A stretch of DNA of 64,000 nucleotides from Dethiobacter sp. GTDB taxonomy: Bacteria > Bacillota > Dethiobacteria > Dethiobacterales > Dethiobacteraceae. Position 1 is the first letter of the stretch, and each line of letters opens with the position of its first letter. A model generated the notes under the pieces. The model saw only the letters and a list, made by a program, of their open reading frames with translations. It did not search any database and was not told where the DNA came from. The stretch lies in the NCBI GenBank assembly GCA_018333635.1, contig JAGXTL010000042.1:1-64000 (forward strand), written 5' to 3'. This document shows positions 127-63,570 of this stretch, piece after piece. A program made the translations under genes and the position numbers.

Positions 127-852
127 TTATCCATGATCCATCCGGTAGGACGGGTTATTCATGTTCAGGATATGTGACCGAAAGGTAAGCCTGTCCACTA
201 GTGCTGCAGTCAATGTGGGGTTTTCAAACAACTCCGTCCATCGCGAAAACACCAGGTTGGTGCTGATGATCACGCTACTTTTTTCTGCTCGATCAGAGAT
301 AACTTTAAAGAGAAGCTCAGACTGGTGGCGGTTAAAACTGAGGTAGGATAATTCATCAATGATAAGTAGCTCCACCTTTTGTAACTGGCGCTCAAGCTTC
401 AGAAGTTCTTTTGTGTCTTTTGCTTCCACCAGCATGGTGGCCAGGGTAGCGGCAGTGGTGAATTTGACACGGAAACCTGTCTGGCATGCGCGCAGTCCTA
501 AGGCTATACTCAAGTGGCTTTTGCCACTGCCGGGATTACCGATCATTAAGATGTTTTGCCGGTTACGGATAAAGTCGCAGCTGGCCAGCTGGTGTACAAA
601 GGCTTCTTCGATGTGCATCAGCCGTTTGAAATCGAACTCTTCTAAGGTTTTCTGATTGGAAAAGCCGGCCTGTTTAATCCGTCGTTTCTGTTGGTTGGCA
701 TTGCGAGATATTAGTTCTTGTTTCATCATAGCTATGAGAAAATCTTCATACCCGAGCTGTTCCTGCTGGCGTAACACCTCTTCGTACCTGGTAAAGCTGG
801 GAATCCGGAGTTGTTTGGCATACAGAGCAATGATTTCACTTTTAGGATTCAT
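127..852 (-). CDS. istB: IS21 helper ATPase IstB
   Basis: AAA+ ATPase of the DnaC/IstB type, which helps the IS21 transposase choose and capture target DNA. A Walker A motif (GNPGSGKSHL, about residues 105-114) and a Walker B-like LLIIDELSYL (about 162-171) are clear, followed by the arginine-rich C-terminal region usual for the family. At 241 residues it is close to the normal 240-260, so it looks intact. Its ATG overlaps the istA stop as ATGA, the standard translational coupling of the pair. Confidence 0.95.
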   Translation of the reverse strand: MNPKSEIIALYAKQLRIPSFTRYEEVLRQQEQLGYEDFLIAMMKQELISRNANQQKRRIKQAGFSNQKTLEEFDFKRLMHIEEAFVHQLASCDFIRNRQNILMIGNPGSGKSHLSIALGLRACQTGFRVKFTTAATLATMLVEAKDTKELLKLERQLQKVELLIIDELSYLSFNRHQSELLFKVISDRAEKSSVIISTNLVFSRWTELFENPTLTAALVDRLTFRSHILNMNNPSYRMDHG

Positions 853-2315
853 TGTGCCACCACCTTGTACTTACGGTCATAGCCTGACAGGTCAATAGGA
901 CTGACAGGAATGTCTTTGGTCGTGGCAAGTTTCATTGGTTCGTGTGGTTCTAATTCGTTTAACACCAAACCAATGGTAGGAGTGATGCCAGTCGGCAATC
1001 GATCTCTGACTGCTAGTACCCGGGCAAGACCGTATTCAACGCTAAACTTTAGTAGTTTAACAGTATCTTTGGCGGTGCCGGGAAAGGTCTTTCCCCACTC
1101 TAGGAGCTCGTTTGCACCAGTTCGGCGGACTGGCTTGGCGTGAAACACGGATCGAGGCTTTTGCTCCAGCAGTGGCAGGTAGTGTTCCAGTTGAAAGGCT
1201 GTCTCTCCTCGGCCATAACAGCGCTGATGCCGGGCGATTTCATCTCCTCCGTGGTAACAGAGCACATGGTTACCGTATGCTTTGAGACTGACGGTTTTCC
1301 CCACTAAATGAACGGGAACAGAGTACTGGTTTTTATCAAAACGGATCAAGCTGCTGTCAGCTACTCGGACAGATAAGCTTTTGCTGGTATCAAATTTAAA
1401 GGCAGGTAGCGGATTCGAGCAGTGCTTATCCACTTGATACTGCTGACCCACCGTTTGATCCCGGCCTTGGATCTGGTGATTCCGGTATTTCAGACAGGCG
1501 ATATTTAGAGTTTCATTCAGTTCTTCTAAACTATCCACGCGAGGCACCGGTACTAGCACGTTGCGTCTGGACCAGCCCACCAGATTTTCGACTAAGCCTT
1601 TTTCGTTGCCACTATTAATGTTGCAAAAGTGCATTTCAAAAGCGTAGTGAGCACTTAGCGCCATGTAGTTATCCTGGGGCTTGGCACAAATACCGAATCC
1701 TTCCTTTACGGCTACCCGTGCATTATCAAAGATGACTTTCCGGGGTACGCGACCGTAGTGATTGAAAGCGGCCACGTGTCCTTCCAGAAAAGATTCCTGG
1801 TTTTGACGTAAGAAAGCTTTAACAAAGATATCGGCACTGTAACAAAGCCGGAAGCAGAACAGCTGGACTTTAATCTTCTTACCTTTTAGGTAAACAGTGG
1901 CTTCTCCCCAGTCAATCTGGGCGGCTTCTCCAGGGTCAAACTCCAGTGGAACAAAAGCTTCCTTAGCGGGTTGCTTTATCTCCCGAACAATACGCCTAAC
2001 TGTGGATTCTGCTCCTGTAAATTTTTTTTCATTTACCAGGCGTTTATAAATCTGTCTGGCAGTATGGCGCTGTTTGGGAATATTTTCTGCCTGGTCTTCT
2101 GCAAAACACTGGTGGATAAAGGTTTCGACTTCATCGGTGATTACGGAAGACTGTCGGTCGTAGGGTTGCCGTTCCCAGGGTACATGATCTCCGTCACAGT
2201 ACTTTTTAACAGTATTTCGTGAGATGCACAGTTCCCGAGCAATTGCCCGCTGTGACATTTTTTGTTGAACAAACATGTGTCTGATTTGGCCATAAAGTTC
2301 CACGTCTATGATCAC
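849..2315 (-). CDS. istA: IS21 transposase IstA
   Basis: DDE-type transposase that cuts and joins the IS ends. The N-terminus has a helix-turn-helix (MSQRAIARELCISRNTVKKY, residues about 19-38). The catalytic triad is visible as D in AAQIDWGEA (about 134), D in VIFDNARV (about 196) and E in NEKGLVENLV (about 241). The 488-residue length fits the family and no frame damage is seen. The start is GTG at 2315, directly after an AAAGGTG; a GTG four codons further in is an alternative. Confidence 0.95.
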   Translation of the reverse strand: MIIDVELYGQIRHMFVQQKMSQRAIARELCISRNTVKKYCDGDHVPWERQPYDRQSSVITDEVETFIHQCFAEDQAENIPKQRHTARQIYKRLVNEKKFTGAESTVRRIVREIKQPAKEAFVPLEFDPGEAAQIDWGEATVYLKGKKIKVQLFCFRLCYSADIFVKAFLRQNQESFLEGHVAAFNHYGRVPRKVIFDNARVAVKEGFGICAKPQDNYMALSAHYAFEMHFCNINSGNEKGLVENLVGWSRRNVLVPVPRVDSLEELNETLNIACLKYRNHQIQGRDQTVGQQYQVDKHCSNPLPAFKFDTSKSLSVRVADSSLIRFDKNQYSVPVHLVGKTVSLKAYGNHVLCYHGGDEIARHQRCYGRGETAFQLEHYLPLLEQKPRSVFHAKPVRRTGANELLEWGKTFPGTAKDTVKLLKFSVEYGLARVLAVRDRLPTGITPTIGLVLNELEPHEPMKLATTKDIPVSPIDLSGYDRKYKVVAQ

Positions 2316-31015: not shown

Positions 31016-31864
31016 GTGGAAAAACAAATCTATAAAAATCGCAAAATTGTTCTCTTGACCAAACATAAAAAGGAGGAAGCGATTAAGCCAATCCTCGAAA
31101 AAGCTACAGGTTGCAGGTTAATTATTGAATCTGGTTTTGATACAGATATATTTGGAACTTTTTCCAGAGATATAACCAGAACTAAATCACAACTAGAGAC
31201 GGCCAGGCTTAAGATTAGAGAGGGGATGTTGCTCTCAGGGCTGGATATTGGTATCGCCAGTGAAGGAAGTTTTGGTCCTCATCCATTTATTCCGGCACCA
31301 TGGAACATTGAATTGGTGCTTTTGTTTGATCAGCAGGAAAACTTTGAGCTGTACGGTATCCATGAAAGCGGCGAGACAAATTTTGCTCAGCTAACAACGG
31401 CTAGCTTTGAGGAGGCGCTAAGCTTCGCAAATAAGAGTGGTTTTCCAGAGCATTTTTTAATTATCAGGCCGGATGATAGTGAGTCTGAGCAAATAATTAA
31501 AGGGATCAATAATTATGAATGGCTAAAAGAGGCGTTTGCATGGTGTGTCGCAGAATCTCATTCAGGTAAAGTGTTCATCGAAACCGATATGAGGGCACAT
31601 GCAAACCCAATCAGAATGGAGAATATTAAAAAAGCAACAGAGGACTTGATTGAGAAATTGCACAATTTTTGTCCAAATTGTACGGCACCAGGCTTCATTG
31701 TCAGTGAAAGAATTAAGGGACTGCCCTGTGAATTATGTGGGCTCCCCAGTGATTTAGTCCTAAAAAATAGTAGTAAATGCCGTAAATGCAGTTATGTTCT
31801 AGAGCGGTTACATCCAAATGGACAATTTGCTGCGGCCAAGTATTGCCATTTTTGCAACCCGTAG
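31016..31864 (+). CDS. DUF6671-like protein with C-terminal zinc ribbons
   Basis: A 282-residue protein. The N-terminal two thirds include KIVLLTKHKKEEAI, FGTFSRDITRTKSQLETARLK and IASEGSFGPHPFIPAPWNIE, which match my recollection of the DUF6671 family; function unknown. The C-terminus has CPNCTAPGF, CELCG, CRKCSY and CHFC pairs that should form two zinc ribbons. Start is GTG with GCGGGGG upstream. It is monocistronic, followed by a terminator at 31944. Confidence 0.65.
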   Translation: MEKQIYKNRKIVLLTKHKKEEAIKPILEKATGCRLIIESGFDTDIFGTFSRDITRTKSQLETARLKIREGMLLSGLDIGIASEGSFGPHPFIPAPWNIELVLLFDQQENFELYGIHESGETNFAQLTTASFEEALSFANKSGFPEHFLIIRPDDSESEQIIKGINNYEWLKEAFAWCVAESHSGKVFIETDMRAHANPIRMENIKKATEDLIEKLHNFCPNCTAPGFIVSERIKGLPCELCGLPSDLVLKNSSKCRKCSYVLERLHPNGQFAAAKYCHFCNP

Positions 31865-32020: not shown

Positions 32021-33271
32021 TTATGGTGTAGCTTGTTCCGTTAAGTTTGCCATTTCTTGTGTTGCCGTGCGGGCAGCTTTCAGAATGCGCCTTCCTTCGG
32101 CAGCATTGTGAAAGCCGGTGCTGTTTTCCACCAGGAACCAATCCAGGAAAAGTTGTGCTTCACGGTGTTTCGCTTGAGCTTGTCTAACTAATTCCTGATC
32201 AACATTGGGCGTACGACGTGCATCACGCAAGGCGTTGATTGCTTTTTCCAATTCCAAGCCTATTTCGTTAGCACTGGAACGCAGTTCGCCTTGGATGTCC
32301 TCTGTCCTTGTTCTGATTTCCGCCAAGTCCGCGTGGCAGCTTTGGCAGGAGGCTTCCATGTGTTTGAGCGGGCTGGCCAGCCAGTGCTGCGTATACTCTT
32401 TCCCTTGTGCATCTTTAACAGTGGGCATGTGGCAATCAGCACAGGTGAGTCCCAGATTAGCATGGATGCTGCCCTGGTAAAACTCAAACTCAGGATGCTG
32501 TACCTTGTGAACGCCGGCACCGGTGCGGGGATGAGTCCAGTCCGAGAAGTTCTCCGCATTAAAGTGTGCCAATGCGTCTTCCGGACGGAAACCTTGGCTC
32601 CAGGGGAAAACTACTTTATTTTGCGTGAACGGTCCTTCAAAATAGTATTCGGCGTGGCATTGTGCACAGACAAGGGAGCGCATATCAAAGTCGGCTAGTG
32701 TTTTCCCCTGAGCCACAATGGCTTCCTCCAGCCAAGGACGGGTAAGGCGCAAGGCAAAATCCGGGCTGTCCGGGTCGTGGCAGTCAATACAGGCAACAGG
32801 GTGTGCCGTTTTTTTGGCCGCCTCACTCCATGGCATGGTGTCAAACTCTACCTGACCATATTCTGCAACCAGCGCTGGGTAGTCGGCAGACTTACAGGCT
32901 AAACACACGCCGCCAAACTTGGGTCGTCCTGTAATCAGCGTGTCTTCAATTGTATACATGTGACCGCGCGATTCGCGGAAGTCAAACCAAAAGCCGAAGC
33001 CATGGTACATGGTGCGCATAAAGGGATATGCGTCCAGCTTTTGATAGGGTACCGAACCGGCAAAGGCTGTCGCCTCCTCTTCCTTTGTGCGCAGATAGCT
33101 GGCTACCTGAGCGGGAAACTGAGTTTGCCAATATTCAACAGCCGCTTGAGTAACGGGTGCTGCCGGCGGCGTGTCTACCGGTGTGGCTGCGGGCTGACAA
33201 CCGGACGCCAGAACCAATAACAATAAAGCAAGTGGAAGGAATAACTTTTTTAAGCCAGTAATTCTATTCAA
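32021..33271 (-). CDS. nrfA: Ammonia-forming cytochrome c nitrite reductase NrfA, lipoprotein form
   Basis: Pentaheme enzyme that reduces nitrite to ammonium outside the membrane. Five heme motifs are visible: the active-site CLACK (about 123-127, Lys-ligated) and CIDCH, CAQCH, CADCH and CQSCH (about 161, 202, 277, 309). The calcium and catalytic residues fit EYYF after the third heme and KVQH (about 256-259), with the catalytic Arg in SRGHMYTIED. The N-terminus is a lipoprotein signal (LLLVLASGC, Cys 25). No nrfH quinol dehydrogenase is encoded in the window, so the electron donor is unknown. A DUF3365 two-component system lies immediately upstream. Confidence 0.95.
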   Translation of the reverse strand: MNRITGLKKLFLPLALLLLVLASGCQPAATPVDTPPAAPVTQAAVEYWQTQFPAQVASYLRTKEEEATAFAGSVPYQKLDAYPFMRTMYHGFGFWFDFRESRGHMYTIEDTLITGRPKFGGVCLACKSADYPALVAEYGQVEFDTMPWSEAAKKTAHPVACIDCHDPDSPDFALRLTRPWLEEAIVAQGKTLADFDMRSLVCAQCHAEYYFEGPFTQNKVVFPWSQGFRPEDALAHFNAENFSDWTHPRTGAGVHKVQHPEFEFYQGSIHANLGLTCADCHMPTVKDAQGKEYTQHWLASPLKHMEASCQSCHADLAEIRTRTEDIQGELRSSANEIGLELEKAINALRDARRTPNVDQELVRQAQAKHREAQLFLDWFLVENSTGFHNAAEGRRILKAARTATQEMANLTEQATP

Positions 33272-33425
33272 TTTCTACAACCTCCCCTTTTTTAGAATAC
33301 TTTTACAATTCTCTCGAGATTAAGTCAGCGGTGACGTAATAAGCAGACTCTCCATTCATCCCCCCCTGCTTCGGATAACTCTTGTCTTATCAGCACTATG
33401 ACACATATTTCACATGCTTGTCGAC

Positions 33426-33469
33426 ATTATACAGCAGGGAAATTAATATTCTCTTAACCTTACATTAAC
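33426..33469 (-). promoter_or_regulatory. nrfA promoter with tandem response-regulator half-sites
   Basis: On the minus strand GTTAATGTAAGGTTAAG holds two GTTAA half-sites exactly 11 bp apart (33469-33454). They directly abut a poor -35 (AGAGAA, 33454-33449), which is 17 bp from TATAAT (33431-33426). This is the layout of an OmpR/PhoB-type activated promoter. The response regulator encoded 225 bp away is the obvious candidate. Confidence 0.6.
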
Positions 33470-33495
33470 AAATTGTTATAATTCGTCTAAAATAG

Positions 33496-34188
33496 TTACA
33501 ATTTGTTCCCGGTAGTGAATTTATAACCGATGCCGCGGACAGTTAGCAAGTATTGAGGTTTTGCCGGATCTTTCTCGATTTTTTGTCGGAGGCGGTTGAT
33601 AAAGACGTTTACCGCATTGCTATCCCCGATATAAGGCTCATCTTCCGTCAGTTTTAGCAGTTGTTCCCGCGTTAGAATCTGCCCTGCGTGCCGGATAAAG
33701 ATGGCCAGCAATTTAAATTCTTTTGGCGTCAAATCCACCCGCTGGCCTCGCACGAAGAGCCGGTGGGCAGTAAAATTCAGCTCCACGTCTGCGATGCGGA
33801 TGCTATCCCCTTGATGCTTGGTTTTTTGGCTTCTTTTCAGGACAGCTTTTGCTCTCAGCGCCAGCTCTTGCGGGCTGAAAGGTTTGGCAACGTAGTCGTC
33901 GGCTTCCAGGGTAAAACCTATGGTCTTATCTAGCAGTTCGTCTTTAGCCGAGAGGATAATCACAGGCGTGTCATATCTTTTGCGGATTGCTCTCAGGAAA
34001 TCAAAACCGTCCATTTCCGGCATCATCACATCTAAAATTACCAGGTCCGGTTTTTCCGCGAAGAAGCAGGCCAGAGCTTCCTGGCCATTTTCTGCCTCTA
34101 CCACTGCAAAGCCTTCCTTGAGCAGAATCTGCTGCAAGATGCGTCTGATTTTGCTTTCATCATCTACAACCAGTACCTTTTTAGACAC
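33496..34188 (-). CDS. OmpR-family response regulator
   Basis: A 230-residue regulator: receiver domain with DDE near the N-terminus, phospho-acceptor Asp in LVILDVMMPEMDGF (about 54) and Lys in AKPFSPQEL (about 103), then a winged-helix DNA-binding domain with LTPKEFKLLAIF and INRLRQKIEKDP. It is encoded 34 bp downstream of the DUF3365 histidine kinase and upstream of nrfA on the same strand. It is therefore likely to activate nrfA. It is clearly paralogous to the regulator at 62860. Confidence 0.95.
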   Translation of the reverse strand: MSKKVLVVDDESKIRRILQQILLKEGFAVVEAENGQEALACFFAEKPDLVILDVMMPEMDGFDFLRAIRKRYDTPVIILSAKDELLDKTIGFTLEADDYVAKPFSPQELALRAKAVLKRSQKTKHQGDSIRIADVELNFTAHRLFVRGQRVDLTPKEFKLLAIFIRHAGQILTREQLLKLTEDEPYIGDSNAVNVFINRLRQKIEKDPAKPQYLLTVRGIGYKFTTGNKL

Positions 34189-34222
34189 ATCTTTGCCCTC
34201 CCACAGGTAGTAGTTCAGACGG

Positions 34223-35872
34223 TCAGTCTATTGTTTTTGCTGAAGCTGTCGGCAAAGTAAACGAAAATGTGGCACCGCGCCCAGGTTCGCTCTCCAGCCA
34301 AATTTCTCCGCCCTGCATTTCGACCAGACCTTTTGAGAGATAGAGGCCTAGGCCGGAGCCGGGGGGACGATTGTTGGCCCGCTTCCCGCCTTGACGGAAG
34401 CGTTCAAAGATAAATGGCTGGTCTTCTTCGTTAATCCCGGGTCCGTTGTCGCAGACAGAAAAAATTACCCGGTCGGGTTTTTGCCCATCAGTTTGAATGC
34501 TGACGGAAATTTTGCCTCCCGGCGCAGTAAACTTCACTGCATTGCCAAGCAGGTTGACCATAACCTGTTTAACTCTTTCCGGATCACAATAGACAGCGGG
34601 TAGATCCTCTTCGAGTTTCAGCTCCAGTTCGAGACCCTTTTTTCTGACGAGCGGGCCAAAAGCTTTCATAATGCCTAAGATCAAAGCTTTGGGCTGTTGG
34701 TTTTTATTGTCCAGCCTGATACGGACTGAATCTAGCTTGGCTGTGTCAAGTAAATTATTGATCATGTTCAAAAGTTGCGTCGCGCTCTCGCGCAGATCAT
34801 GCAGATTCTGCTGCCGCTCTTCTTGTGAAAAACCCGGTATTTCTAAAAGCTCCACAAAAGCAAGGATGCAAGTAAGCGGAGTCCGCAGTTCATGGCTTAC
34901 CGCTGCCAGAAAATCACCCTGCAAGCGATTCAGTTTTTGCAGTTCTTCGTTCATCCAAAAGAGTTTCTGCTTTTCCTGTTCTAAGTTTAAAGTCTGTGCC
35001 TGCACCTTATTTTCGAGGTTTTCATAGAGCAGAAGCAGCTCGCTTGCCATGTTCTGGAATATTTCCTCCAATACCCTAATTTCTCCGTACCCTTTGTGCC
35101 GGCGGTCCTCTTCCTGCAGATAGAAGTTTCCTTTGCCCAACTTAACTGCCAGGGAGCTTAACCCTTCAAGCGGTGCGGTCACCAACTTGCGCTGCAGAAT
35201 ATACAGGAGGAGCAAGGAGAGACACAGCAGAAGAAAGATGAAAAATAACTGGGAATAAATATCTTTCCAGAGCTGAGCGTAGTATGCTGCTGCGGGAATA
35301 GTGACAGACAAGGCGCCTGCAAAATCGCCCAGAGCGAGTCCTTCCCGCGGGTAGCCGGAGATGTCTATCTCGCCTCGCGGAGAGCCATGGCAAGGCAGGC
35401 AAGAGCTGTCAGCATAAAGAGGGATCATATAGCGAAAGAACGGCTCTCCCTCTAATACGTCCTTTTTCCAGACAAAATCAGCTTCGGGGTTATCTTGCAA
35501 CCAAAGAAGCTGAGCCGACTCGAACGTATCCGGCGCGTTGGCAGGGTTGCGCGGCTGAAGGCGGGTCTGTTTAAAAGTGTATGAAGTTTTGCTGTTAAAA
35601 ATTTCGCCTACCCCACGACCGAAAGCAGCAGGATTTAGTCGTTTAAATTCGAAATTGCCGTGTGAGTCGAAATTTATTCTGTCCTGGTTTGCCGCCGCAA
35701 AAGAGCGGACAGCCACAAACTGCTGGGTAATCAACTGTGCCTTAGCCAGCATTTTTTGCTCGCCGGATTCCTGCTCTAGCCGGATATTCCAAGCCAGGTT
35801 TAGAGTCATTACTGCCGTGATGGCGAGCGTAATGTAGCCCATATAAATATGAATCAGTTTTCTGCCCTTCAC
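34223..35872 (-). CDS. Heme-binding (DUF3365) sensor histidine kinase
   Basis: A 549-residue membrane kinase. A membrane helix (about 10-30) and an extracytoplasmic DUF3365/Tll0287-like domain containing CLPCH (158-162) point to one covalent c-type heme. A second membrane helix (about 205-228), a HAMP-like linker and coiled coil lead to the kinase core: phospho-accepting His 327 in AAVSHELRTPLT, N-box, DNGPGIN and GSGLGLYLS. It probably senses redox state, NO or nitrite via heme. First gene of the kinase-regulator pair preceding nrfA; a paralogue lies at 61191. Confidence 0.93.
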   Translation of the reverse strand: MKGRKLIHIYMGYITLAITAVMTLNLAWNIRLEQESGEQKMLAKAQLITQQFVAVRSFAAANQDRINFDSHGNFEFKRLNPAAFGRGVGEIFNSKTSYTFKQTRLQPRNPANAPDTFESAQLLWLQDNPEADFVWKKDVLEGEPFFRYMIPLYADSSCLPCHGSPRGEIDISGYPREGLALGDFAGALSVTIPAAAYYAQLWKDIYSQLFFIFLLLCLSLLLLYILQRKLVTAPLEGLSSLAVKLGKGNFYLQEEDRRHKGYGEIRVLEEIFQNMASELLLLYENLENKVQAQTLNLEQEKQKLFWMNEELQKLNRLQGDFLAAVSHELRTPLTCILAFVELLEIPGFSQEERQQNLHDLRESATQLLNMINNLLDTAKLDSVRIRLDNKNQQPKALILGIMKAFGPLVRKKGLELELKLEEDLPAVYCDPERVKQVMVNLLGNAVKFTAPGGKISVSIQTDGQKPDRVIFSVCDNGPGINEEDQPFIFERFRQGGKRANNRPPGSGLGLYLSKGLVEMQGGEIWLESEPGRGATFSFTLPTASAKTID

Positions 35873-61190: not shown

Positions 61191-62867
61191 ATGTTTTTTC
61201 TGCACAGGCGTTCACTTGTATGGCGTTATCTGTGGATTTTGAGTTTTTTGACAGTTATTATTTTGACGTTGAACTTTTTTTGGAGCAGTGCGAAGTTAAG
61301 GAGTAGCGAGTTTTCTCACTTGAGAAATAAAGCCTCTGCCCTGACTGAGCAGTTTGTTTCCATGCGCTCGCTCATCGCAGAAAATCAGCAGAGGATTAAC
61401 TTTGATGCCGCAGGTAATTTTGAATTCAGACACTTAAATCCGGCTGCGGCGGGCAAGGGAGTAAGCGAATTCTTCGCCGGCCGGACATCTTATCTCATTA
61501 AACAGACAAGGCTCAATGCCCGTAATCCGCAAAACTTGCCGGACGCATTCGAGCGTGAGGCGCTCAGCAATTTTGCGGAAAATCCAGGGTTGACAGAGTT
61601 GTATAGAGCATACATGTTGAACGGTAAACCAGTATTCCGTTATATTACCCCGATCTATCTGGAAGAAGCCTGCTTGGCTTGTCACGGCGAGCCTGCCGGC
61701 AAGCCGGATGTGGTAGGCTTTCCGCGTGAGGGTCTGCGGGGAGGGGAACTGGCGGGTGCTATCAGTGTGCTGATTCCAATGGAAGAAACGCAGCTTACGC
61801 TGGCTGACAGCCGGAACAGTTTATTGATTTTCAGCTTGGTTTTACTTGTCACTATTTTGCTTGGAAGTTTAGTATTAACTGCCCGTTTAGTGATTCGTCC
61901 CTTGCAGGAGATTGCTAAAATGGCGCAGCAGGTGGCCAAAGGTGACTTAGGCGCTAAATTTGACGAAATTACTGCATATGGCGAAGTGGCTGCTCTAGCG
62001 CACGAGTTTTCTGTGATGCTTAACACTCTAAAGGATCTCTATCAGAATATGGAGCGCAAGGTGAAATCACGTACGCGGGAGATAGAGGCAGCCAACCTGC
62101 GCTTGCAGGAAGGGCAAAAATATCTGACTCAGCTCAATTATAAATTAAGTGAAAACAGCCGCTTGAAAAGTGAGTTTATGGCTACAGTAACCCATGAACT
62201 GAAGACTCCGCTTACCGCTATTGTGGCTTTCTGCGAGATTTTATTAGATGAGATCCCCGGGCCGCTAAACGGAGAGCAAAAAGAGGATCTGCTGGATATT
62301 AAAACGAGTGCTCAGCAGCTCATGATTTTAATCAGCGATATTTTAGATATGGCCAAGTTTGAGGCGGGCGCTTTGCGTGTTGAAAAAGAGCAGGTTGATT
62401 TAAACGATGTCTTTCGTGTTGTGCGGCGCACCATGTCTGCCATTGCTTACCAGAACAATATCCGTCTTACGGTTGCCAGATCTGAGTTGCCGCTGTTAAT
62501 GGGTGACCCGGAAAGGCTGCGGCAAATAATTTGTAATCTCATCTCTAATTCGATTAAATTTGTTAAAGAGGGAGGAGAGATAACAGTTTCCGCAGAAGCA
62601 GAGAGCAATTTTGCAGCTATCTCTGTTGCTGATACCGGTGAGGGGATTCCGCCGGAACTAATGCCGCATATCTTTGAAAAATTCAGACAGGGAGAAGAAT
62701 CGCTAAAGCGTCGGCGAGGTGGCACAGGCTTGGGGCTGGCGCTTGTGAAAACGCTGGCAGAACTGCATGACGGCAGCGTGTCGGTTAAAAGTGAGCTAGG
62801 CAAAGGAACCACATTCACCGTACGGATTCCATTTGTAAGGCTGGGGGGAGGAGGAAGCGATGAATAG
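61191..62867 (+). CDS. Second heme-binding (DUF3365) sensor histidine kinase
   Basis: A 558-residue paralogue of the kinase at 34223. One membrane helix (about 10-32), a DUF3365 domain with LNPAAAGKGVSEFF, TSYLIKQTRLNARNP and the heme motif CLACH (161-165), a second helix (about 210-232) and a HAMP domain follow. The kinase core has His 335 in ATVTHELKTPLT, DTGEGIP and GTGLGLALVK. It should sense a heme ligand or redox signal outside the membrane. It overlaps its regulator by 8 bp. The targets are not apparent from neighbours. Confidence 0.93.
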   Translation: MFFLHRRSLVWRYLWILSFLTVIILTLNFFWSSAKLRSSEFSHLRNKASALTEQFVSMRSLIAENQQRINFDAAGNFEFRHLNPAAAGKGVSEFFAGRTSYLIKQTRLNARNPQNLPDAFEREALSNFAENPGLTELYRAYMLNGKPVFRYITPIYLEEACLACHGEPAGKPDVVGFPREGLRGGELAGAISVLIPMEETQLTLADSRNSLLIFSLVLLVTILLGSLVLTARLVIRPLQEIAKMAQQVAKGDLGAKFDEITAYGEVAALAHEFSVMLNTLKDLYQNMERKVKSRTREIEAANLRLQEGQKYLTQLNYKLSENSRLKSEFMATVTHELKTPLTAIVAFCEILLDEIPGPLNGEQKEDLLDIKTSAQQLMILISDILDMAKFEAGALRVEKEQVDLNDVFRVVRRTMSAIAYQNNIRLTVARSELPLLMGDPERLRQIICNLISNSIKFVKEGGEITVSAEAESNFAAISVADTGEGIPPELMPHIFEKFRQGEESLKRRRGGTGLGLALVKTLAELHDGSVSVKSELGKGTTFTVRIPFVRLGGGGSDE

Positions 62868-63570
62868 CAAAACAACAAAAATATTGGTGGTTGATGATGA
62901 GCCTAAAATCAGGCGAATTGTCGAACAAAGCCTGCGTAAAGATGCGTATCGTGTTGTTCACGCTTGTGACGGTAAGGAAGCAATGCAGAAAATTGCTGCT
63001 GAACAACCTGATCTGATTGTTTTGGATCTGATGATGCCGGAAATGGATGGCTTTGAAGTTTGCAGAGAGATGCGCAGCCGTGGTGACAATACTCCCGTGA
63101 TTATCCTCACAGCCAAAGATGAGCTGGAAGATAAAGCTCAAGGGTTTAACTTGGGTGTGGATGACTATGTAACTAAACCGTTTAGTCCTTCGGAACTGGC
63201 GCTGCGGGTTAAAGCCGTACTGCGCCGGGTTGGCGGAGAGGATTTGGCTCCGCGCTTGAAAGAAGGCACATTTAATGACGGCAGGCTCTATATTAATAGC
63301 AAGACACGGGAAACAAAATTAAATAATGACGGCGTATATTTGACTGCCAAAGAATTTGATTTGCTTTGGGTATTGGCTAATAATCCCGGGGTGGTCTATA
63401 GCCGTGACCAATTGCTAGATATGGTCTGGGGTAACGAGTATTTCGGTGATTCGGGCACGGTGACAGTTTTAATCAGGCGCATCAGGGAGAAAATAGAGAA
63501 AGATCCTGCAAACCCGACATATCTGAAAACAGTGTGGGGGATCGGCTATAAGTTTGAAGCAGCCTTATAA
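62860..63570 (+). CDS. OmpR-family response regulator, partner of the second DUF3365 kinase
   Basis: A 236-residue regulator with receiver motifs VVDDEPKIRRI, LIVLDLMMPEMDGFEV (phospho-Asp about 55) and TKPFSPSEL. The winged-helix domain has LTAKEFDLLWVLA and LIRRIREKIEKDP. It starts inside the kinase 3' end after GGGGGAGGAGG. It closely resembles the regulator at 33496, so the two may share binding sites. Confidence 0.95.
   Translation: MNSKTTKILVVDDEPKIRRIVEQSLRKDAYRVVHACDGKEAMQKIAAEQPDLIVLDLMMPEMDGFEVCREMRSRGDNTPVIILTAKDELEDKAQGFNLGVDDYVTKPFSPSELALRVKAVLRRVGGEDLAPRLKEGTFNDGRLYINSKTRETKLNNDGVYLTAKEFDLLWVLANNPGVVYSRDQLLDMVWGNEYFGDSGTVTVLIRRIREKIEKDPANPTYLKTVWGIGYKFEAAL

Follow-up and report, generated by a model that had tools for sequence, protein, structure and literature searches.

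What controls the gene for NrfA, the pentaheme cytochrome c nitrite reductase, in a member of the Bacillota? The locus that raises this question lies in 64,000 nucleotides of Dethiobacter sp. DNA (GenBank assembly GCA_018333635.1, contig JAGXTL010000042.1, positions 1 to 64,000), here called the window. An initial annotation of this DNA placed a kinase with a CLPCH motif and an OmpR-type regulator 5′ of nrfA on one strand, and both the arrangement and the coordinates are exact by Pfam and by sequence. Judged from the sequence, this pair very probably regulates nrfA directly, and the regulation is probably positive. The explanation that we favor as a whole, by a little, is that a two-component system sensing nitric oxide (NO) through a c-type heme switches on nrfA for respiratory ammonification. 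At the sequence level it is supported by domain identity, gene order, recurrence across families and phased sites in nrf promoters; heme loading, NO as the signal, and activation over repression are what we infer.

The kinase–regulator–nrfA locus

Read along the minus strand, GlnRS is followed by the kinase, the regulator and nrfA, and a DUF6671 gene (31016-31864) faces nrfA. The three genes in question are as follows.

34223-35872, minus strand: sensor histidine kinase, 549 amino acids (aa); first transmembrane segment at about aa 7-27, sCache_heme/Tll0287 domain, second transmembrane segment at about aa 206-228, HisKA, HATPase_c
33496-34188, minus strand: OmpR/PhoB-type response regulator; Response_reg (PF00072) and Trans_reg_C (PF00486) by Pfam
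32021-33271, minus strand: nrfA, pentaheme cytochrome c nitrite reductase and predicted lipoprotein, 416 aa; Cytochrom_C552 (PF02335), E=2e-103

The sensor domain of the kinase is extracytoplasmic, lying between two hydrophobic segments that were read from the sequence, and carries a single CLPCH. It matches the Tll0287-like domain (PF11845, DUF3365) over aa 35-193 (159 aa, E=8e-30, 104.7 bits against a cut-off of 24.1; Pfam). A 2026 preprint gave this family the new name sCache_heme and puts the conservation of its CXXCH at 99% (PMC12889525). The C, C and H are invariant in alignments of 15 and of 23 homologues of the window domain, and a profile of the 15 matches the Tll0287 structure in PDB entry 5b82 (E=6e-11). 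The region below was modelled with AlphaFold2 (pLDDT 89).

35273-35791, minus strand: modelled sensor region, aa 28-200; single CXXCH and no other Cys in the alignments

In a Foldseek search the model had 5b82 as its best match (E=5e-8, TM-score 0.67/0.72) and as its sole match below 1e-3, with GSU0935 (3b42) third at E=1e-3. By the 5b82 match the model has the Cache fold with the heme helix insertion. Tll0287 itself has an axial Cys, whereas the window domain has none. A fused HisKA/HATPase_c output and the lack of an axial Cys are both traits of the signalling cluster (2) of sCache_heme domains, and the window domain is placed in that cluster because it has no Cys beyond the CXXCH. From sequence and model, the sensor belongs to the c-heme Cache family. 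Covalent heme c is predicted for the kinase; both covalent heme c and NO binding are known for other members (PMC12889525), and the genome encodes ResB-CcsA, the system II heme attachment machinery, on contig C99. The signalling member WP_033902098 of P. azotoformans, which also has no axial Cys, binds NO tightly in vitro, releasing it with a koff of 6e-4/s, and forms no stable O2 complex (PMC12889525).

In an alignment of 19 regulators, that of the window retains both its phospho-acceptor Asp (in VILDVMMP) and its Lys (in AKPFSP). Pfam assigns to it only Response_reg and Trans_reg_C; it thus has neither the LuxR/GerE-type output domain of NarL nor the composition of the sigma54-dependent NrfR. 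It also falls below the PhoB equivalog cut-off (NCBIfam TIGR02154; 193 vs 296 bits). The view of the initial annotation that the system is distinct from NarXL and NsrR holds, as sensor type and regulator type both differ.

The nrfA promoter

The 224 bp between the regulator gene and nrfA, conserved in part among three congeneric species, contain the following elements.

33443-33469, minus strand: three direct half-sites, GTTAA tgtaag GTTAA gagaat ATTAA, at 11-bp spacing; putative regulator array in place of a -35
33426-33431, minus strand: perfect -10 hexamer TATAAT, identical in three congeneric species

Two GTTAA half-sites 11 bp apart had been described at 33454-33469. Their position is exact, since GTTAATGTAAGGTTAA occupies precisely these coordinates on the minus strand and is matched exactly once in the window, where shuffling predicts 0.17, but the count is three: a further half-site, ATTAA, follows at the same spacing and ends at 33443. 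The full pattern GTTAAN6GTTAAN6RTTAA occurs without mismatch once in the 2.39 Mb genome. The poor -35 that had been noted is indeed poor, as AGAGAA at 17-bp spacing matches one position of six. In PhoB-type activation, 11-bp repeats lie upstream of the -10 and replace the -35. The window promoter has this direct-repeat layout, with putative regulator sites and an array that ends 11 bp 5′ of TATAAT.

Recurrence across the Bacillota

The initial annotation had proposed checking the synteny of DUF3365 kinases with nrfA in other genomes. The check was run on 399 Bacillota genomes, many of them metagenome-assembled genomes (MAGs), with PF11845 counted over its cut-off and NrfA when full-length at E<1e-30. 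PF11845 is present in 42 genomes, NrfA in 71 and both in 33. The sCache_heme preprint describes the family as rare in Bacillota or missing from them (PMC12889525). This co-occurrence (33/42, odds ratio 31, Fisher p=1.6e-20, with no correction for phylogeny) is inflated because both proteins are enriched in anaerobic, cytochrome-rich lineages; adjacency is less affected. Seventeen kinase/NrfA pairs lie within 10 kb of each other, in 16 genomes of 12 families, where uniform placement predicts 0.6, and in 15 of these pairs NrfA lies on the 3′ side of the kinase. The proposed link between the kinase–regulator pair and nrfA thus gains support from synteny and, as described below, from 11-bp repeats at the nrf promoters of other families.

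The usual layout is histidine kinase, regulator, NrfH where present, and NrfA. The form without NrfH is found in the window genus and in the genomes designated G288 and G312, and the form with NrfH in G153, G225, G129, G207, G206 and G435. Two further genes, the first ResB-like by sequence, stand before NrfH-NrfA in G342 (Desulfofundulus australicus) and G365. NrfA is oppositely oriented in Carboxydothermus, G186 and G373. Cultured carriers of the arrangement are Desulfofundulus australicus DSM 11792 and Carboxydothermus islandicus.

Within the class (98 genomes) the adjacency is confined to the window genus. The GlnRS and DUF6671 flanks are conserved there too, and for this reason synteny among congeners was not accepted as evidence by itself. 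Among the 12 linked families the flanking genes differ. In a tree of 74 kinases the nrfA-linked ones are scattered, so the linkage is either old and kept or repeatedly gained. The window kinase groups (support 97/91) with those of G288 and G312, which come from two other families and share the NrfH-less order.

Phased repeats at other nrf promoters

Half-sites at 11-bp spacing are also found at nrf promoters of other families, in the majority of the linked cases that were inspected. They read as GTTAA pairs in G129, G207, G365 and Yes71-11, as GTAAG or GTAAA in G288, G312, G435 and Bin_10, and as GTCAT in G153 and G225. The common form GTNA was set after the regions had been read and carries no independent weight. 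In 11 independent regulator–nrf regions, an unsupervised scan for 5-mers repeated three times gave a combined z of 7.9 at period 11; the other periods from 6 to 18 lie near 0, except for 1.8 at period 6 and 5.0 at period 16. General A/T phasing of promoters was rejected as the source of the 11-bp periodicity by 150 unrelated intergenic regions of the same loci, whose mean z at period 11 is 0.32, against 2.4 in the regulator–nrf regions; resampled sets of 11 never match (p<5e-5). With one fixed definition of the upstream region, the mean z is 1.8 for linked nrf genes, 0.6 in genomes with an unlinked kinase and -0.1 in genomes free of sCache_heme (Mann-Whitney p=0.02). A -10-like TANNNT lies 10 or 11 bp past the final half-site in five of the ten independent promoters whose array is clear. 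This distance matches PhoB-type geometry, which is an argument for activation though no proof of it.

The nitrite reductase

NrfA has the CXXCK active-site motif as CLACK and four CXXCH. It aligns with the Desulfovibrio vulgaris enzyme (PDB 2vr0) at E=3e-61 with RGH, EYYF and KxQHPE conserved. An Arg, a Tyr and a His act in NrfA catalysis, and their contexts in the window protein, RESRGH, HAEYYF and KVQHPE, align with 2vr0 and 1oah. The product is, by sequence, a canonical pentaheme NrfA, and nitrite reductase activity is predicted. Its nearest solved relatives are of the Desulfovibrio NrfHA type, and the protein falls short of the equivalog cut-offs for the NrfABCD type (NF008339/TIGR03152; 252 bits where 595 are required, and 196 where 692.5 are). 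The start codon is TTG, behind AAGGGGAGG.

No nrfH adjoins nrfA, and NrfH/NapC-like multihemes occur in the genome only on contigs C25, C27 and C131; nrfH is present in the loci of several relatives. The lipoprotein assignment of the initial annotation stands, with a lipobox, LASGC, that is kept in two congeners, but it is nothing new, since lipoprotein NrfA was predicted earlier in other Firmicutes (Bacillus and Desulfitobacterium; PMC3475470) and is ordinary in Bacillota. The idea that the lipid anchor compensates for an absent NrfH was rejected because the NrfH-less G288 and G312 have no lipobox and many NrfH-paired NrfAs have one. That the host is a monoderm is an assumption from its affiliation with the Bacillota.

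A second NrfA-like protein is encoded on contig C131 (L013:9718-11133, minus strand). It has 471 aa, seven CXXCH and one CMFCK, an octaheme-like count, together with a C-terminal hydrophobic anchor, and it lies near a TorD-like chaperone, a ferredoxin and an NrfH-like multiheme.

A proposed mechanism and its rivals

In the proposed mechanism the extracytoplasmic Cache domain of the kinase would hold a covalent c-type heme with no Cys ligand on its distal side. NO that escapes from nitrite reduction, or accompanies it, would bind the heme and change kinase activity. Binding is probably restricted to ferrous heme, so the redox state would gate the response. The OmpR/PhoB-type regulator would then bind the three phased half-sites that replace the nrfA -35 and recruit RNA polymerase, and the raised level of NrfA would remove nitrite and NO as ammonium. 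NO is the likeliest signal because the closest tested architecture binds it and because nitrite reduction is known to yield it as a by-product (PMC5701242); that it is the main signal we regard as an even call. A wider proposal, that sCache_heme kinase–OmpR modules are the NO switch of Bacillota ammonification with nrfA or nrfHA as targets, joined in certain lineages by HAO-like octaheme cytochromes, is tentative and falls somewhat short of even.

Across all these systems the wiring is supported by sequence and comparison. Several observations weigh against the NO mechanism. Other kinases of the family adjoin HAO-like multiheme cytochromes (PF13447) or a dimethyl sulfoxide (DMSO)-reductase-family gene, which suggests that the signal may be wider than NO. 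The c-heme relatives GSU0582 and GSU0935 of Geobacter bind NO and are nevertheless thought to be redox sensors (PMC8396549). The linked loci of G129, G207 and G206 have two repeats only or none that are clear, and lack a -10 where one is expected, and the excess of triple repeats at period 16 has no explanation.

The main rival keeps the same wiring but has the heme read redox potential, with NO not the physiological signal: the heme iron, once oxidized by nitrite, Fe(III) or a rising potential, would change its coordination and so switch the kinase. It draws on the heme domains of GSU0582 and GSU0935, which change spin state and Met ligation with redox at -156 and -251 mV, and on DcrA, described as a redox/O2 sensor (PMC8396549); the kinases beside HAO-like and DMSO-reductase-family genes would also suit a general respiratory signal. 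The strongest association is nevertheless with NrfA, an N-oxide enzyme, and the one signalling-fused member that has been tested behaves as an NO binder (PMC12889525), so that redox sensing, while a real contender, appears unlikely. Improbable in turn is that the ligand is nitrite (or hydroxylamine), as proposed for NrfS-NrfR and reported for NarX/NarQ. nrfA does encode a nitrite enzyme, nitrite could in principle occupy an open distal heme site, and Desulfovibrio NrfS-NrfR responds to it (PMC5701242), but no published nitrite binding was found for any Tll0287 domain, the cited work being on NO and carbon monoxide.

A different view would make the two-component system a general respiratory or envelope regulator that happens to stand beside nrfA, the repeats serving another regulator or autoregulation. 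The conserved GlnRS and DUF6671 flanks do weaken congeneric synteny, and 44 of the 61 sCache_heme kinases in NrfA genomes have no nrfA within 10 kb. Linkage in families with different flanks, the spread of linked kinases over the tree and phased repeats specific to linked nrf promoters nonetheless make such a bystander very improbable.

Relation to known systems

The closest characterized sensor is P. azotoformans WP_033902098, which shares the extracytoplasmic Cache domain, CXXCH, two transmembrane helices, the missing axial Cys and a fused signalling module (PMC12889525). The window protein differs from it in being a histidine kinase with a neighboring OmpR regulator and nrfA as its putative target; the preprint gives neither a target gene nor a neighborhood and does not mention nrf. 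The chemoreceptor domains of GSU0582 (3b47) and GSU0935 are likewise periplasmic c-heme sensors, but unlike the window kinase they are fused to chemotaxis output and have been proposed to sense redox. Desulfovibrio NrfS-NrfR is also a dedicated two-component system beside nrfHA, which it activates on nitrite (PMC5701242, PMC6456213). The comparison here covers the regulators: NrfR is a sigma54-dependent activator, whereas the window has an OmpR/PhoB-type regulator and a sigma70-type promoter. The D. vulgaris NrfA shares its heme count, CXXCK and catalytic residues with the window protein, which differs in having no adjacent NrfH and in its predicted lipid anchor.

The NarX-NarL and NarQ-NarP pairs provide another case of two-component control of nrf by N-oxides. 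The NarX and NarQ sensors bind nitrate or nitrite and are not known to use heme. NarL and NarP bind heptameric inverted repeats (PMC12285233), whereas the window has a predicted c-heme sensor and 11-bp direct repeats. The promoter is PhoB-like in the arrangement described above, and the GTCAT half-sites of G153 and G225 are Pho-box-like; the window differs in its GTTAA half-site and in the score of its regulator.

Other features of the window and related genomes

Downstream of the -10 lies a further conserved element.

33398-33425, minus strand: conserved block GTCGACAAGCATGTGAAATATGTGTCAT, 28 bp, 90-95% invariant in three species

It contains GTGAA N6 GTCAT, which resembles a degenerate TGTGA-N6-TCACA Crp/Fnr-type site, and is by sequence a candidate second operator or Crp/Fnr-like site. 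With three mismatches the block also matches C85:57791, where the sequence forms a perfect TGTGA-N6-TCACA dyad 5′ of Mrp-antiporter-like genes. The best other half-site array of the genome is a four-unit 11-bp series (GTAAA/GTTAA/ATTAA/GTTAA) at C19:30065-30102 (L068), which precedes an HD-domain gene. The idea of a regulon defined by the one-mismatch arrays, at C19:30065 and, before a DNA polymerase IV/copper-amine-oxidase-like pair, at C39:8768, was not adopted.

The window holds a second system of the same kind.

61191-62867, plus strand: paralogous sCache_heme kinase, not linked to nrfA
62860-63570, plus strand: OmpR-type regulator of the second system

This pair lies between rlmL and an IscR-like/nifS pair, a neighborhood that orthologues of the kinase keep, with no nrfA there, in other Dethiobacter-related MAGs. 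Elsewhere, HAO-like cytochromes stand beside sCache_heme kinases at L083:7887-12240, L084, L212 and L080, with a NapC/NrfH-like tetraheme between them in L083 and L084. In Gordonibacter (L091, L092) a kinase and regulator are followed by a catalytic subunit of the DMSO/selenate-reductase family. At L165:3090-4478 and in relatives, all Carboxydothermus-like genomes, a 20-heme NapC/NrfH-like cytochrome is directly 5′ of the kinase. The kinase of Carboxydothermus islandicus is split into two frames of 117 and 439 aa (L160:6683-8211, also L095), whereas the relatives G144 and G182 have an intact one; the split is a frameshift or a sequencing error.

Two further observations concern other genes. 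A molybdopterin oxidoreductase frame at C102:23707-25101 (L220) contains one in-frame TGA and is a candidate selenocysteine formate dehydrogenase, and an IstB/IstA-like pair of an IS21-type insertion element lies at the start of the window (127-2315, minus strand).

Significance

Expression of nrf decides whether nitrite ends as ammonium, with its nitrogen kept, or as gas, with its nitrogen lost. The known nrf regulators (NarXL/QP, FNR, NsrR, NssABC and NrfS-NrfR) are all Gram-negative, and the table of nrf regulation in a review from 2025 covers only E. coli, Shewanella, Wolinella and Desulfovibrio, all Gram-negative as well (PMC12285233). Among the open-licence literature no description of an sCache_heme two-component system paired with nrf was found, and by sequence the system appears to be a switch for nitrite ammonification of a sort not described before. 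A recurrent two-component system with a candidate binding motif offers a directly testable regulator for Bacillota, and it supplies a putative target gene for a sensor family whose NO binding in vitro had no known output. If the wider NO-switch proposal is correct, this would be the first physiological role for sCache_heme sensors and the first nrf regulator for the Bacillota.

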